Shown here one piece after another: positions 638 through 5,577 of a stretch of 64,000 nucleotides of DNA. The notes under the pieces are model-generated. The model was given only the letters and a program-made list of their open reading frames with translations, had not been told where the DNA came from and did no database searches. The stretch's first letter is position 1. Every line of letters starts with the position of its first letter. Source of the stretch: Fimbriimonas sp. (GTDB lineage: Bacteria; Armatimonadota; Fimbriimonadia; Fimbriimonadales; Fimbriimonadaceae); contig JARXAE010000024.1 in the NCBI GenBank assembly GCA_029866005.1, positions 1 to 64,000 on the forward strand. The letters are read 5' to 3'. The position numbers and the translations under genes were made by a program.

Positions 638-3600
638 TCACCCTTTTCTCAGAACCTCGATTGCCTTGGCGAGTTGGGGATCGATTCCGCTCAGATACTG
701 CTCGGGCGAGATTTCGACGATGAAATCGGGCTTCACGCCGAGGTTTTCCATGGGAGTTCCATCAACGCGGAACACACCCGTACCTGGCAGTCGACCCTGA
801 GTTCCATCCACGAGTGGAAGGTTATAGGTGTAGATCACGTAGCCACTGGTGGTCGTACCGACGATCTTGGCGAGTTTGCGGGCTCGCATGGCTTCAGGGA
901 ACATCTCGGCATTCGAGAAGCTCGACTCATCACACATCACAACGATGGGCATGTTAAGAAGAGTTCCGGGTCCGGTGATCACCGATTCGTCGCGTGGCAC
1001 ATAATTCATGTTTATGCGCCGCTCGAGGATGTCGATGATTCGGTCAGCGGTGTTGCCACCTCCATTTCCTCTAACGTCGATGATGACCCCTTTCTTACCT
1101 TGGGCGTACTGCCAGATTTGCTGGTTGAACCTGTCTAATGATCCTCCGTCCATTCCGGCGATCTGGACGTAAGTAAAGTCACCGTTTGAATTCGATTCGA
1201 CCCACTTTCGGTTGGCCTCGAGTTTGTTCTGACGAATGATTCCGCTGTATTCACCAGCCGACAAACCGCGTGATTTCACTTCACGCTCTTTTCCGTCGGC
1301 GCCCTTCACCATCATCGTCAGTTCACGACCGACTTGATCGTTGAGAACGTCTCGGAACAGGGCTTCACTGACGGTGACTTCCTTACCGTTGATCTTTGTG
1401 ATGATATCGCCGGGATTCAGCTTGGTCTTTGCGTAGGTACCCGGAGTGCGCTTTGGAACCTCGAGAACCTTGATTCCGGGGCCGGCATAGGTGTAGTCAA
1501 CCACGAATCCGGGAACAGCGGAGTTTGCAGACTTTGCGCCTCCTGGACCCGGAGAGACTTCGGCATGCGACGCTTCGAGCTCGCCGGTTAGCTGAGCAAG
1601 CAAAGTCGCCATTTCGCGGCGATGTCCAACTGAAGGCAAGAACTTGCGATACTTTTCTCCAATCGCCGCCCAGTCTCTTCCGTGGAAGTTGGGGTCATAG
1701 AACGCGTCATTGTAGGCTCGCCAGAACTGCTGATAGGCCGCGGTGCGAACCTTGGTGAGGTCCCGTGTGAACTCAGCCCGGAACGAGATCGGGGTGGCAG
1801 GGAAACCGGGCGCCTTGGTATTAATGTTGAGGATTCGACCACGTTGGGCGACCGTGAGAGTTCTGCCATCTTCGCTTAACTCGAACCAGTTCGATGCGTC
1901 GGTGACACGTCTAGGGTTTTCGCCGCTGTAGTCGGCTTTGTAGACGGCATCCGGCGCGAGGTAGTAGAACGAGCCATCTTCTTTGTCGAAAGCGATGATT
2001 CCGCCGTTGACATTCCCGAGCCTTCTTGCCCGGGTCTCGATATCCTCAAAGTCGATTTCAACCTTGACGGCATCCTTCGGCTTCTCGTACTTCATCGTCA
2101 ATTCGTTGGGCCGAAGCTCTTCTTGCTTGAGAGGAAGGGCGGTCAGGGCACCTGCGCGGAGGTAGTAGAGGTACTTGCCATCAGGAGTCCAGGCTGGCGA
2201 GTGGTGCTCCACATTCGTCTGAGTAACGTTCGTCTTGACTCCGGTGCTGAGGTCAGTCACGAAGACGTTGTTTCCCGAGTCCCAGGGGTAGAGTCCGCTG
2301 CCGATAAGGGTTTCAACAAAAGCGACGTACTTTCCGTCGGGAGAGAAGCTGAATTCCAGATTTGCTCGTCCAGGACGGGCGACGGCGCGGGTTGGCTTTC
2401 CACCGTCGACAGACACCGTGTAGATTCCGCCCTGGTTTCCGAACTGCTGATAGGCGATTGACTTCTTATCAGGAGTAACTTGAATGTTGTCGACGCTTGC
2501 AGACTCCGTTGAGATCTTTGTTGTCTTTTTGCTGGCGAGATCCAACCGATAGAGCATCGAAGAGCCATCGCGGTCGCTGATGAAAAAGACTCCTTTGCCA
2601 TCCGGGGTGTAGACCGGACCGGTATCAAGACCTTCCCATTCAGACCATCGGGTGGCGTCGTCCTTGTTCGGACCTTCTCCCTTCTTGACTGGGACGGACC
2701 ATATTTCGCTACCTGCCGAGAAAACAGCGGTGGTACCGTCTGGGCTGAGCGTCACGGAATCTGCTCCTTCGGTCAGCACAACCGATTCTTCGGTTGAGAC
2801 TTTATCATCCAGGTTCGCCGTCAGACTGATCTTTGCAGGTTGCCCGCCTGGCTTGAGCGTATAGACAGAGCCATCGTGCTCGAATGCGAGAGTCGAGCCG
2901 TCTCGTGACGCGGCAAGGAACCTCGCTCCATCGCCTACGAAATTTGTCAGTCGCTTTGCCCCACCCTTCGCGTCGATTTTGTACACATTGGGAGTTCCGC
3001 CCGCCGTAAAGGTCACTTTCCCGACGCTTTTTGTGAGCGTGCTCGAACTCGCGACTGGCTCGGTCATGGTGACGGCGTAGATTCCAGACTGCGTGATGCT
3101 CGGCCATAGGTGCTGGTACCCATTGTTGCGAACTTCGTTGCGCTTACCGGTCTTCTTATCAAACAGCCAAAGCTGTGCCGCGCCGGACCCTTGGTAGCGC
3201 GCACGTTGCCACGGGAAACCGAATCGAGCATAAAGAACTTTGTCTCCTTCGGGTGAGGACATCGGGGCCTCGATCGGCATCTGGTCGCTAAAATGGCTCT
3301 TCAAGTCGAGAGTTTCGGTGTTAAGAGACATGACGGTTCGGTAGCCGTTATCGAACGTGCGAATCAGGCTGACTGACTTACCGTCGGCGTCCCATGAGTA
3401 CGGAATGTCGTTGCCGGTGAACCAAGTGACTCGCTTCGGTTTTCCACCATCTGCCCCAACAACGAAGATGTCGAAGTTACCGAATCGATCGCTTTGGAAG
3501 GCGAGCTTGGAACCATCGGGGCTCCAGACTGGACGGTCATCCATTTCGACGTTATCGGTGATCCGAACTGCCTTGCCGCCTAGCGAAGGCGCAACCCAAA

Positions 3601-3742
3601 TGTCGCCCTGGTAGCTGAAGGCTAATCGAGAGCCATCCGGGCTCAAGGAGAGCCAGCGGGCGCCTATCAACTCGTCGGCAAACGCCGCCGAGGAGGCCAC
3701 TAAAGAGAGCGCAACAATACCAAATCTACCGAAAGATTTCAT
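638..3742 (-). CDS. Secreted tricorn-type S41 protease
   Basis: A 1034-residue protein starting with a clear signal peptide (MKSFGRFGIVALSL...AFA/DEL). The N-terminal half carries TolB/WD-like propeller repeats (SPDGSRLAF, SPDGSKLAF, SPDGKYVAF). Then come the tricorn core segment (YDPNFHGRDW, SHAEVSPG with the likely catalytic His), a PDZ domain (NPGDIITKINGKEV) and the S41 domain with the catalytic Ser in SFSNAEMF near residue 943 and a Glu in MENLGVKPD. This matches tricorn core protease homologues, which degrade peptides; here the signal peptide places it outside the cytoplasm. An in-frame start at 3880 is rejected because it lies in the opposite-strand riboswitch and would bury the signal peptide. 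Confidence 0.93.
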   Translation of the reverse strand: MKSFGRFGIVALSLVASSAAFADELIGARWLSLSPDGSRLAFSYQGDIWVAPSLGGKAVRITDNVEMDDRPVWSPDGSKLAFQSDRFGNFDIFVVGADGGKPKRVTWFTGNDIPYSWDADGKSVSLIRTFDNGYRTVMSLNTETLDLKSHFSDQMPIEAPMSSPEGDKVLYARFGFPWQRARYQGSGAAQLWLFDKKTGKRNEVRNNGYQHLWPSITQSGIYAVTMTEPVASSSTLTKSVGKVTFTAGGTPNVYKIDAKGGAKRLTNFVGDGARFLAASRDGSTLAFEHDGSVYTLKPGGQPAKISLTANLDDKVSTEESVVLTEGADSVTLSPDGTTAVFSAGSEIWSVPVKKGEGPNKDDATRWSEWEGLDTGPVYTPDGKGVFFISDRDGSSMLYRLDLASKKTTKISTESASVDNIQVTPDKKSIAYQQFGNQGGIYTVSVDGGKPTRAVARPGRANLEFSFSPDGKYVAFVETLIGSGLYPWDSGNNVFVTDLSTGVKTNVTQTNVEHHSPAWTPDGKYLYYLRAGALTALPLKQEELRPNELTMKYEKPKDAVKVEIDFEDIETRARRLGNVNGGIIAFDKEDGSFYYLAPDAVYKADYSGENPRRVTDASNWFELSEDGRTLTVAQRGRILNINTKAPGFPATPISFRAEFTRDLTKVRTAAYQQFWRAYNDAFYDPNFHGRDWAAIGEKYRKFLPSVGHRREMATLLAQLTGELEASHAEVSPGPGGAKSANSAVPGFVVDYTYAGPGIKVLEVPKRTPGTYAKTKLNPGDIITKINGKEVTVSEALFRDVLNDQVGRELTMMVKGADGKEREVKSRGLSAGEYSGIIRQNKLEANRKWVESNSNGDFTYVQIAGMDGGSLDRFNQQIWQYAQGKKGVIIDVRGNGGGNTADRIIDILERRINMNYVPRDESVITGPGTLLNMPIVVMCDESSFSNAEMFPEAMRARKLAKIVGTTTSGYVIYTYNLPLVDGTQGRLPGTGVFRVDGTPMENLGVKPDFIVEISPEQYLSGIDPQLAKAIEVLRKG

Positions 3743-3806
3743 GTTATTAACCCTACCGCCTGAGCCAGCAAAAGTGTTTGGTTTTGATGTATCATGCTGG
3801 TCACAT

Positions 3807-3922
3807 CTCAGAGGCGATTCCGTCGTGGAATCGCTGAAAGAACGGGGAAAGTCCGGTGAAAGTCCGGCGCTGTGCCGCAACGGTCAAGGCAGAAATGTCT
3901 GAGCCCGAATGCCCGCTCTGAG
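3807..3922 (+). promoter_or_regulatory. Cobalamin (B12) riboswitch aptamer
   Basis: The plus strand holds the conserved cobalamin aptamer core: an ACGGGGAA segment, a CCGG(T)GAAAGTCCGG hairpin, then GCTGTGCCGCAACGGT (B12 box type) and an AGCCCGAATGCC ending. Closing stem P1 is perfect: CTCAGAG at 3807-3813 pairs with CTCTGAG at 3916-3922. A further stem, GCGATTCC (3814-3821) with GGAATCGC (3827-3834), lies inside. Such RNAs bind adenosyl- or methylcobalamin and usually repress B12 synthesis, import or B12-independent isozymes. Here it reads toward the prepilin-like gene at 4025, which is unexpected. The divergent protease gene reads the other way and is not its target. Confidence 0.92.
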
Positions 3923-3962
3923 TGGAAATACGAAGCTGTCGCCAACGAGCATTGGTCGCGCA

Positions 3963-4024
3963 AACACCCCCTCTTGGGGCGTGTTCGGCACCCTCATTAT
4001 CGATGGCCTCAACAAAGAGGCTAT
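3963..4024 (+). promoter_or_regulatory. Riboswitch expression platform: hairpin plus SD-sequestering stem
   Basis: Two hairpins follow the aptamer. The first (3963-3985) pairs AACAC+CCCC with GGGG+GTGTT around a TCTT loop, with one bulged C. The second is an 8-bp stem, ATGGCCTC (4003-4010) with GAGGCTAT (4017-4024), around the loop AACAAA, including one G-U pair. Its 3' arm contains the AGAGG ribosome binding site and ends on the base before the ATG at 4025. This is the layout of a translation-controlling platform: folding hides the ribosome site. Which ligand state favours the stem is inferred, not seen. Confidence 0.75.
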
Positions 4025-4786
4025 ATGAAGAAACAAGCGTTTACGCTCATAGAACTACTCGTCGTTATTGCGATTATCGCAATCCTTGCCGCCATCCTGT
4101 TCCCCGTCTTCGCCCAGGCAAAGGAGGCTGCCAAGAAGACCCAGTCGATCTCGAACCTCAAGCAGATTGGGCTTGCTTGGACGATCTATTCGGGCGATTA
4201 CGACGACACGCTCATGCGCGTCCGCATTGTCGCCTCGCCAACCCTGATCAACTATTGGTGGGGTTCTTTTGACGGAACTCATTTACGCGAGGAAGGTGGC
4301 CTACTCTTCCCTTACACCAAAGGCAAGGGAGTGCAACAAGACCCTTCGTTCCCGAATCGTCTGCGGTCGGTTGTTGGCTTCACCGGTTACGGCTATAACT
4401 ACAGCTATCTCTCTCCATCAAGCTATTCTCCGCCAACTTGGGCTGAGACGGCCGTCGGCGTGAGTGCGACGGCGGTGGGTTCGCCGAGCGAAACGGTGGC
4501 GTTTGCTTCTTGCGCGCGCATCAACAATTGGTCAACAACAATCCCCACGCTCGAAGGAAATACATATTTGGAGCCTCCTTCTTCTGACTTCCCTTCCTTC
4601 CACGCTCGGCACTCAGGAAAAGGAACTGTACTTTGGGTGGACTCTCACGCAAACACGCGCACCCCAAGCTATCGAACAGGTAGTTTTGGTTACGGCTACA
4701 ACTCTCTTGACTTCATCAAAAACACCCTCGGAGACGTCGATAGGGACGGCAACTTTGGGTCCGATGAACTATTCGATCTGGAGTAG
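4025..4786 (+). CDS. Prepilin-type N-terminal methylation domain protein (DUF1559-like)
   Basis: A 253-residue protein with a type IV prepilin leader and helix: [17 protein letters not shown], then [15 protein letters not shown]. It would be cleaved by prepilin peptidase before the Phe and its N-methylated helix inserted in the membrane or packed in a pseudopilus. The C-terminal part has the H-x-DG-like segment of this family ([17 protein letters not shown]) and ends in a calcium-loop-like acidic motif ([12 protein letters not shown]). Such proteins are abundant in Armatimonadota and Planctomycetes; individual roles are unknown. ATG 4025 is chosen because the prepilin leader must be N-terminal and AGAGG precedes it. 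The cobalamin riboswitch just upstream implies B12-dependent expression. Confidence 0.92.
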
Positions 4787-4821: not shown

Positions 4822-5577
4822 ATGCTCAGCACAATCATCGCCCTTGCAGCCGCTCAAGCGGACGGACTTCAAACCGTGACTCTCAACGTTGACGGCGTCG
4901 AACGGACGTTCATCGCCTACGCTCCACTGACCAAAGACGCACGGCCCCGTCCGCTCGTGTTCGCGTTCCACGGGCACGGTGGGAATATGAGGAACTCTGT
5001 CTCAAGGTTTAAGTTCAACAAAACGTGGCCCCAAGCAATCTCCCTCTATCCTCAGGGTCTTCCTACCAAAGGAATGACTGACCCTGAGGGCAAAAAAAAC
5101 GGCTGGCAACAGCGGATCAATACCGAGGGAAACCGGGATGAGAAGTTCTTCGATGCGATGATGGAATGGGTCCGCAAGAATCACCGCCTTGATGAGAAGA
5201 ACATCTTCTCAATGGGGCACTCGAACGGCGGCGCGATGACCATGGTTGCATGGAACTCCCATCCTGATCTATTCAAAGGGGTTGGGGTTTGCTGCGCGGG
5301 GGGACGCGCTCTGCCTGCGAACAAGCCAACAGCGATCTTTTCGGTGGCTGGAAAGAATGACCCGATTGTCAAATTCGCTGGTCAGCAGCTCTCGTTCAAC
5401 ATGGTCAAACGTCACAACGGCGGCACCGGAGACGGAAAGCCGTACGGTCCAAACTCAACGATTTGGGAAGGCAAAGCTCCATCGGTTTGGTATGTCACCG
5501 ACGGGGGTCATGAGCTGCCCGAGGAAGGACTCGAGCAACTCACGAAGTTCTTCAAAGACTTAGCTGCGAAGCCCTGA
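4822..5577 (+). CDS. Secreted LpqC/PHB-depolymerase-type esterase (CE1-like)
   Basis: A 251-residue alpha/beta hydrolase with a short signal peptide (MLSTIIALAAAQA). The nucleophile elbow is GHSNGGAM with Ser near residue 134; an Asp in GKNDPIV and a His in DGGHELPEE complete the likely triad. The FHGHGGN loop supplies the oxyanion hole. Relatives include feruloyl esterases, acetylxylan esterases and polyhydroxybutyrate depolymerases of the LpqC family. Given the hemicellulose enzymes elsewhere in the window, removal of acyl groups from plant polysaccharide is the likelier job. It starts 35 bases after the prepilin-like gene and may share its riboswitch-controlled transcript. Confidence 0.85.
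   Translation: MLSTIIALAAAQADGLQTVTLNVDGVERTFIAYAPLTKDARPRPLVFAFHGHGGNMRNSVSRFKFNKTWPQAISLYPQGLPTKGMTDPEGKKNGWQQRINTEGNRDEKFFDAMMEWVRKNHRLDEKNIFSMGHSNGGAMTMVAWNSHPDLFKGVGVCCAGGRALPANKPTAIFSVAGKNDPIVKFAGQQLSFNMVKRHNGGTGDGKPYGPNSTIWEGKAPSVWYVTDGGHELPEEGLEQLTKFFKDLAAKP

Follow-up and report, generated by a model that had tools for sequence, protein, structure and literature searches.

A Cobalamin Riboswitch Paired with a Dedicated Prepilin-like Gene in Fimbriimonadia Suggests an Undescribed Way of B12 Capture

Introduction

What does a cobalamin riboswitch control when the next gene encodes a prepilin-like protein? The question is raised by a locus of Fimbriimonas sp. (phylum Armatimonadota, class Fimbriimonadia). 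The window, i.e., the whole stretch of DNA that was analysed, comprises 64,000 nucleotides of contig JARXAE010000024.1. The aptamer belongs to a known riboswitch family, and the regulated unit is new among B12 acquisition systems within the literature searched. The reading that we prefer, and regard as probable, is that the riboswitch governs a dedicated prepilin-like protein of the cell surface, which is repressed by B12 and serves to capture B12 or take it up. The features of the locus are as follows.

3807..3922, + strand: AdoCbl-II (class II cobalamin) riboswitch aptamer (RF01689, 39.3 bits; stems from sequence)
3870..3883, + strand: L5 segment CUGUGCCGCAACGG, with the same letters in 67 of 98 class sites
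3942..3955, + strand: candidate L13 kissing-loop hairpin, CCAA-CGAGCA-UUGG, directly 3' of the aptamer
3986..3991, + strand: CGGCAC, exact complement of GUGCCG of L5 (3872-3877), found by eye in the window and two relatives (L090, L102) only
4003..4024, + strand: expression-platform hairpin (4003-4010 with 4017-4024) over the Shine-Dalgarno GAGG (4017-4020)
4025..4786, + strand: riboswitch-linked prepilin-like gene, 253 aa, of a dedicated ortholog family by sequence, predicted type IV pilin-like fold
4733..4768, + strand: putative EF-hand-like loop near the prepilin C-terminus (alignment; DxDxDGxxxxDE in many members)
4822..5577, + strand: PHB-depolymerase-like esterase, 35 nt 3' of the prepilin gene; model matches below curated cut-offs

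Divergently upstream of the riboswitch (638-3742, - strand) lies a gene for a tricorn-type S41 protease with TolB-like repeats.

Riboswitch Aptamer

The Rfam covariance model for AdoCbl-II (RF01689) matches positions 3832-3922 of the + strand with 39.3 bits against a cut-off of 36.5, and this is the sole cobalamin riboswitch that Rfam reports in the window. The general model RF00174 covers 3794-3934 with 31.4 bits, which is 0.1 bit below its cut-off of 31.5. The first-pass annotation had called a cobalamin aptamer with a perfect P1 and had named RF00174 as the model with which to check it; the call is borne out by RF01689 and by P1 itself, and the general model falls just short. As read from the sequence, P1 is a perfect 7-bp stem between CTCAGAG (3807-3813) and CTCTGAG (3916-3922), inside which GCGATTCC and GGAATCGC form an 8-bp hairpin (3814-3821 with 3827-3834). 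Elsewhere in the source genome (2.8 Mb, 97% complete), no match found attains the cut-off of RF01689 or that of RF00174.

A kissing loop between L5 and L13 of cobalamin riboswitches is described in PMC9600662. By analogy, the hairpin with the CGAGC(A) loop at 3942-3955 is a candidate L13 partner of L5. In relatives, its loop is near-invariant and its stem positions change in step. Of 98 class sites, 76 show the loop pattern 0-45 nt past the end of the aptamer and 82 show it within 120 nt, counts that carry no shuffled control. By eye, L5 and this loop can form just 3-4 bp (UGC against GCA), and little variation is seen in either loop. A strong alternative pairing of L5 with CGGCAC at 3986-3991 was dropped as a mechanism because it was noticed in only two relatives, L090 and L102.

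Expression Platform and Probable Translational Control

The hairpin that the first-pass annotation had set against the start codon was recovered in full: ATGGCCTC (4003-4010) pairs with GAGGCTAT (4017-4024) through 8 bp, including one G-U, and the last base of the hairpin is the one before ATG 4025. When the leader 5' of the Shine-Dalgarno (SD) sequence was dinucleotide-shuffled, with the sequence from the SD onward kept, none of the 40 shuffles reached an equal strength of SD pairing. Taken as a whole, the 118-nt stretch exceeds its shuffled versions only moderately in stability (z -1.8, with 12 of 200 doing as well), and the case therefore rests on conservation rather than on energy. The platform hairpin is found again in the near relatives L090 and L102. 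Among class sites with a GAGG-type SD, a hiding stem of at least 7 bp is present in 18 of 44, compared with a mean of 4.2 (maximum 9) when the upstream 100 nt were shuffled base by base in 50 rounds; one pair of these stems varies, with A-U, G-U and G-C all occurring. A recognised SD could be placed in 58 of the 73 riboswitch-prepilin sites, and it is paired with a probability over 0.8 in just 28 of these 58 (mean 0.80 vs 0.70 for shuffled sequences), a point against the preferred reading. The SD-hiding device is thus common in the class, not universal.

No intrinsic-terminator-like site was found on the + strand of the leader, and terminator-type control was therefore rejected; together with the hairpin at the start codon, this favours translational control. 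Cobalamin riboswitches usually act as OFF switches upon ligand binding. By analogy, the bound ligand, presumably a corrinoid, would also turn the riboswitch of the window OFF.

The Prepilin-like Protein

The gene begins at ATG 4025, as had been claimed from the sequence alone. Its product matches N_methyl (3.4e-08) and TIGR02532 (31.5 bits), both above cut-off, and its N-terminal processing motif has E at position +5. The match to DUF1559 (PF07596; 2.8e-06, 28 bits against a gathering cut-off of 23.3) is short and covers profile positions 2-31 of 268 only. An AlphaFold model predicts a pilin-like protein (pLDDT 94, pTM 0.88) with a long N-terminal helix from 8 to 58. In comparison with solved folds, each of the nine matches listed is a type IV pilin or a pseudopilin, with a best Z of 5.7, and no Foldseek E falls below 0.001. 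A B12-binding fold was rejected for the protein, with only pilin-type folds among the matches listed, a result that does not by itself exclude binding. A search of PDB sequences with the prepilin-domain profile gave nothing meaningful. The absence of a detected B12-binding domain, with weak matches to type IV pilins only, counts against the preferred reading.

The soluble domain contains the conserved features TGYGYN, PPS and WxDGH, in many members also DxDxDGxxxxDE, and an acidic tail; from the DxDxDGxxxxDE motif we take the loop at 4733-4768 to be EF-hand-like. Mean column identity over the soluble domain is 56% in an alignment of 26 hand-chosen members and 50% over 64 members, and 26 of 64 family members have a match to the H-X9-DG model (E up to 0.01). 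With the C-terminal part of the window prepilin as query, 60 of 70 other riboswitch-linked class prepilins score above the best paralog of its own genome (39.7 bits). A tree was built from 71 of 73 class prepilins (two were left out because they were too short or contained unknown residues), 53 of 54 phylum prepilins (one was too long) and 41 of the 60 prepilin matches of the window's genome, for which 50 loci were fetched and 150-420 aa kept from those of at least 200 aa. One clade with a support of 0.991 holds 123 of 124 riboswitch-linked prepilins and 0 of 41 paralogs, the paralogs being drawn from the window's genome only. By this sequence evidence, the riboswitch-linked prepilins are a single dedicated family.

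Similarity of the prepilin to models of ComGC, GspG and PilA is below cut-offs and confined to the N-terminal helix. Such similarity is expected for any prepilin; it is what speaks for the alternative that B12 regulates competence, or DNA uptake, by way of a minor pilin; DNA uptake had been raised by the first-pass annotation. Its confinement to the helix argues against that alternative, as does the lack of a competence gene recognised by eye in 26 neighbour clusters, a minority of which were run against family models, and we consider it very improbable.

Distribution of the Riboswitch-Prepilin Pairing

In 113 class genomes searched at E up to 0.01, RF01689 matches 69 and RF00174 matches 89, giving 98 distinct cobalamin-riboswitch sites in 90 genomes. 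Four sites run off a contig end (L014, L040, L041, L046), which leaves 94 testable. Gene calls in the censuses are open reading frames rather than the output of a trained gene finder, and a site was scored as positive when an open frame with the prepilin motif lay no more than 450 nt away (the median being 139 nt past the aptamer). A prepilin is the next gene at 73 of 94 sites (72 genomes), or 77 of 94 on adding four sites that show the motif and were missed through the start-codon rule (L083, L123, L132, L142). By the same ORF rule, 41 of 113 class genomes are without the pairing, which tells against the preferred reading.

RF00174 at E up to 1e-5 is present in 228 of 291 phylum genomes, the class included. 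Outside the class, a prepilin lies within 600 nt at 54 of 84 testable high-scoring sites among the matches listed. This census is a non-random sample of 90 loci from the top of the score-ranked matches listed (30 returned and 60 hand-picked), from which sites close to contig ends and second sites were often omitted; six loci (L313, L321, L322, L325, L371, L391) were dropped, their downstream sequence being too short or unplaced. A prepilin lies farther than 600 nt away at three sites (L327, L352, L389), and L348 resembles a broken prepilin. Of the 30 sites with no prepilin in 600 nt, roughly 20 look by eye like genes for B12 transport or synthesis or other B12-linked genes, the targets being TonB receptors, BtuF-like proteins, ABC proteins, adenosyltransferases, CobU/CobT-type proteins and ribonucleotide reductase. 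The aptamer-prepilin order had been named as something to look for in relatives, and both censuses strongly uphold it.

The window's genome has 60 N_methyl matches in 2.8 Mb, so that, with randomly drawn genes, a prepilin would be expected at about 2% of sites. This abundance raises the odds of a prepilin adjoining any element, and a coincidental pairing or a relic riboswitch was weighed for that reason. The frequencies of 73 of 94 in the class and 54 of 84 among the matches listed outside it, set against about 2%, speak against this alternative, as do the single prepilin clade and the cobalamin riboswitches in 228 of 291 phylum genomes; as a general explanation it is refuted by the censuses. 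We give it next to no probability. Binomial values, calculated for about 2600 genes with the sites taken as independent, are descriptive only, because the sites share descent.

A prepilin-profile search of named genomes yielded 80 loci, and Rfam scans covered 39 of 83 prepilin-search loci. RF00174 was found upstream of non-class orthologs in 10 of 15 sources (L235, L236, L241, L244, L245, L247, L251-L254, of which L244 and L245 look alike) and, in a further scan, at 7 of 11 bacterial loci (L264, L266, L267, L271, L272, L275, L282). The linkage is thus seen under two families, RF01689 and RF00174, with 33-112 bits upstream of orthologs elsewhere; L237 has a weak RF00174 match of 22.6 bits. In the Rfam scans, a gathering-score riboswitch was absent from L242, L259, L260, L261, L263, L269, L277 and L281. 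Five of these are Chthonomonadales ortholog loci (L242 and L263 of one genome, L259, L260 and L261), a further point against the preferred reading. Rfam found no riboswitch at L278, L279, L280, L287, L288 and L289, which are distant loci from Verrucomicrobia and Phycisphaerales.

Several loci deserve mention in their own right. Tandem cobalamin riboswitches precede the prepilin gene in L272 (492-621 and 792-982) and L353. A Fimbriimonadia-type prepilin locus occurs in L219, a record titled Methanoregulaceae archaeon; the title looks wrong. In L291:4211-5654, from a phage-like IMG/VR contig of 479 kb, an AdoCbl-II riboswitch precedes a single open frame in which a DUF6580 membrane protein (4.8e-29) and the B12-linked prepilin are united, as a fusion or an overlap. 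L290:2208-7105, from an IMG/VR contig of 379 kb, carries two prepilins, one of the B12-linked family, adjoined by a chaperonin gene, tmRNA and four tRNAs, with no gathering-score riboswitch.

Partner Proteins and Neighboring Genes

Secreted partners, clustered by single-linkage BLAST, are found at 26 of 98 class sites, 16 of those with a prepilin by the ORF rule. Cluster c16, which follows the prepilin at 3 sites, is a DUF4465 cluster: the one member tested matches PF14717 at 8e-53, and matches to solved DUF4465 structures start from 5.6e-28. PMC13398666 describes B12 binding by eight distant DUF4465 members and an NTPAY loop. This loop occurs in the two c16 members inspected.

Cluster c0 is present at 15 class sites. 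It has no Pfam family except PEP-CTERM (5 of 9 members tested) and one weak match; a further weak match is to the SCO2322 family (7.9e-06, below cut-off). The predicted model is of moderate quality (pLDDT 74.5). Its first 14 Foldseek matches are the beta domains of transcobalamin and intrinsic factor (E 0.0016-0.066), and structural comparison gives Z 12.1 for haptocorrin and intrinsic factor and 11.5 for transcobalamin, with a range of 10.7-12.1 over these proteins; the next-best match is the bacterial protein 3u7z at Z 10.4, and unrelated folds follow from 6.3. On the strength of this model, c0 would be a bacterial relative, in fold, of the animal B12 carriers and may bind B12. An example is the secreted PEP-CTERM protein L270:6282-6848, which with its relatives has the predicted transcobalamin-beta-like fold.

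Searches of PDB sequences gave nothing meaningful with the c0 and c4 profiles, no convincing match for the c8 propeller and none for c10. Relatives of c4 lie behind the prepilin at six of the named loci (L270-L276, L269 not included). In two Phycisphaerales loci (L283:1915-5681 and L284:2132-5675), an RF00174 riboswitch, a c4-type surface protein, a PQQ-type propeller and a distant prepilin relative are consecutive. Other riboswitch targets include a FecCD permease, identified by family model behind a second riboswitch in G027 and G030, the small chain of a class I ribonucleotide reductase in L068, and, on a single strand in L352, a PduO-type adenosyltransferase (by eye) that is followed by a prepilin.

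These partners could also be read in another way, in which the prepilin is a secretion-pseudopilus subunit that exports or displays B12-binding PEP-CTERM or DUF4465 proteins and so has an indirect role in acquisition. The secreted partners at 26 of 98 sites, 16 with a prepilin, and a secretin in 110 of 113 class genomes are consistent with such a role. At 57 of 73 riboswitch-prepilin sites, however, no secreted partner lies within 2.5 kb on the same strand, which also counts against the preferred reading, and we hold a pseudopilus subunit to be quite unlikely. At many class sites the gene after the prepilin lies on the opposite strand, and the prepilin therefore appears to stand alone.

The esterase had been proposed as a possible co-target. 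The gene is real and begins 35 nt after the prepilin gene; as a class-wide second gene it was rejected, since tblastn places it downstream at 5 of 98 class sites, all of the window's genus (L157, L090, L102, L094, L095). The gap is 35 nt in the window and its nearest relative (G031) and 328 nt or more in the other three; cotranscription with the prepilin is possible in the window and the nearest relative.

B12 Physiology

None of the 113 class genomes matches the CbiC model, which matches 7 of 14 controls; bacteria with the riboswitch-prepilin pairing are apparently unable to make B12. The MetH activation domain is found in 83 of 113 class genomes, FecCD in 104, a secretin in 110 and a TonB receptor in 40. 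In 48 of the 72 riboswitch-prepilin genomes a TonB receptor was not detected; the 24 that have one weigh against the preferred reading. The window's genome has no match to the TonB receptor family PF00593 and none to the MetH domain, the latter being likewise unfavourable to that reading. Its only B12-binding domain match, G000:C27:85485-85805 (L298, L301:4901-5872), lies on a regulator that is ArsR-like by eye, which does not favour that reading either. Its only FecCD permease match is at G000:C30:29524-30468, and by eye no transporter partner adjoins it.

Proposed Function

In the mechanism that we propose, the hairpin at 4003-4024 would cover the Shine-Dalgarno sequence when the corrinoid cofactor is plentiful, and less prepilin would be translated. 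When B12 is scarce, the prepilin would be translated, cut by prepilin peptidase and presumably assembled, at the outer membrane or outside it, by a machinery like that of type IV pili or type II secretion; there it may aid capture or inward passage of B12, alone or with secreted B12-binding partners, the candidates being the transcobalamin-beta-like c0 and the DUF4465 cluster c16. The setting would be bacteria that apparently lack B12 synthesis and often have no detected TonB-dependent receptor.

The first-pass annotation had suggested that B12 status may switch attachment or DNA uptake, a proposal that found no support. The partners and the other riboswitch targets point to B12 acquisition instead: DUF4465 and FecCD by family model, the transcobalamin-beta-like proteins by fold, and TonB receptors, BtuF-like proteins and adenosyltransferases by eye. 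A B12 shortage might still induce a pilus-like adhesin by which the cell holds on to particles or to organisms that produce B12, with the prepilin itself not handling B12. The prepilin class, the type IV pilin-like fold and the many class sites at which the prepilin seems to be alone would suit an adhesin; the recognised partners, in contrast, are B12 binders by family or fold rather than adhesins, and the soluble domain is well conserved, which we would not expect of an adhesin tip. On balance, an adhesin seems unlikely.

A role of the prepilin in B12 acquisition, which we infer from this evidence, could take a bolder form. A dedicated pilin-like fibre induced by B12 shortage might bind B12 or a B12-loaded carrier and move it over the outer membrane through a secretin, replacing the TonB-dependent receptor BtuB, and such a vitamin-uptake pilus would hold for Armatimonadota and some Phycisphaerales. 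We offer this version tentatively and consider it doubtful.

Relation to Known Systems

The riboswitch shares the aptamer, P1, L5, the candidate L13 hairpin and the SD-hiding platform with known AdoCbl-II (RF01689) and Cobalamin (RF00174) riboswitches, and differs from them in its target, a prepilin-like gene. In the searches made of open-licence PMC papers, neither a prepilin-like or DUF1559 target of cobalamin riboswitches nor an armatimonad cobalamin riboswitch was found.

Surface capture of B12 under riboswitch control, as proposed here, is a feature of the Bacteroides loci (BtuB with the surface proteins BtuG, BtuH and BtuJ), and DUF4465 links the partner at the prepilin sites to Bacteroides BtuJ1/J2 (PMC13398666). 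Unlike in Bacteroides, the most frequent target here is a prepilin rather than a TonB receptor, and several partners carry PEP-CTERM motifs, whereas those of Bacteroides are lipoproteins. A BtuB-type locus is marked by a riboswitch-controlled TonB receptor; the riboswitch of the window precedes a prepilin, in a genome with no PF00593 match. In its predicted fold, c0 agrees with the beta domains of haptocorrin, intrinsic factor and transcobalamin, and it differs from these animal carriers in being bacterial, short (189 aa) and secreted, with 10-12% identity and no alpha domain. With the DUF1559 (SBP_bac_10) prepilin-like proteins of Planctomycetes and Armatimonadota, the prepilin shares the N-terminal methylation helix and the short DUF1559 match, and part of its family shares the H-X9-DG match. 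It differs from them in belonging to a single dedicated clade that B12 riboswitches precede and whose members have an acidic C-terminal tail and a soluble domain that is conserved.

The pairing of riboswitch and prepilin, at times beside B12-binding surface proteins, suggests an undescribed way of B12 capture. In these phylum censuses a prepilin is the commonest gene behind B12 sensors, which provides a lead to the function of a branch of the large, uncharacterised group of DUF1559-type prepilins. How B12-dependent bacteria with no detected TonB receptor take up B12 becomes a testable question, and transcobalamin-like bacterial surface proteins may join the possible tools of B12 competition.
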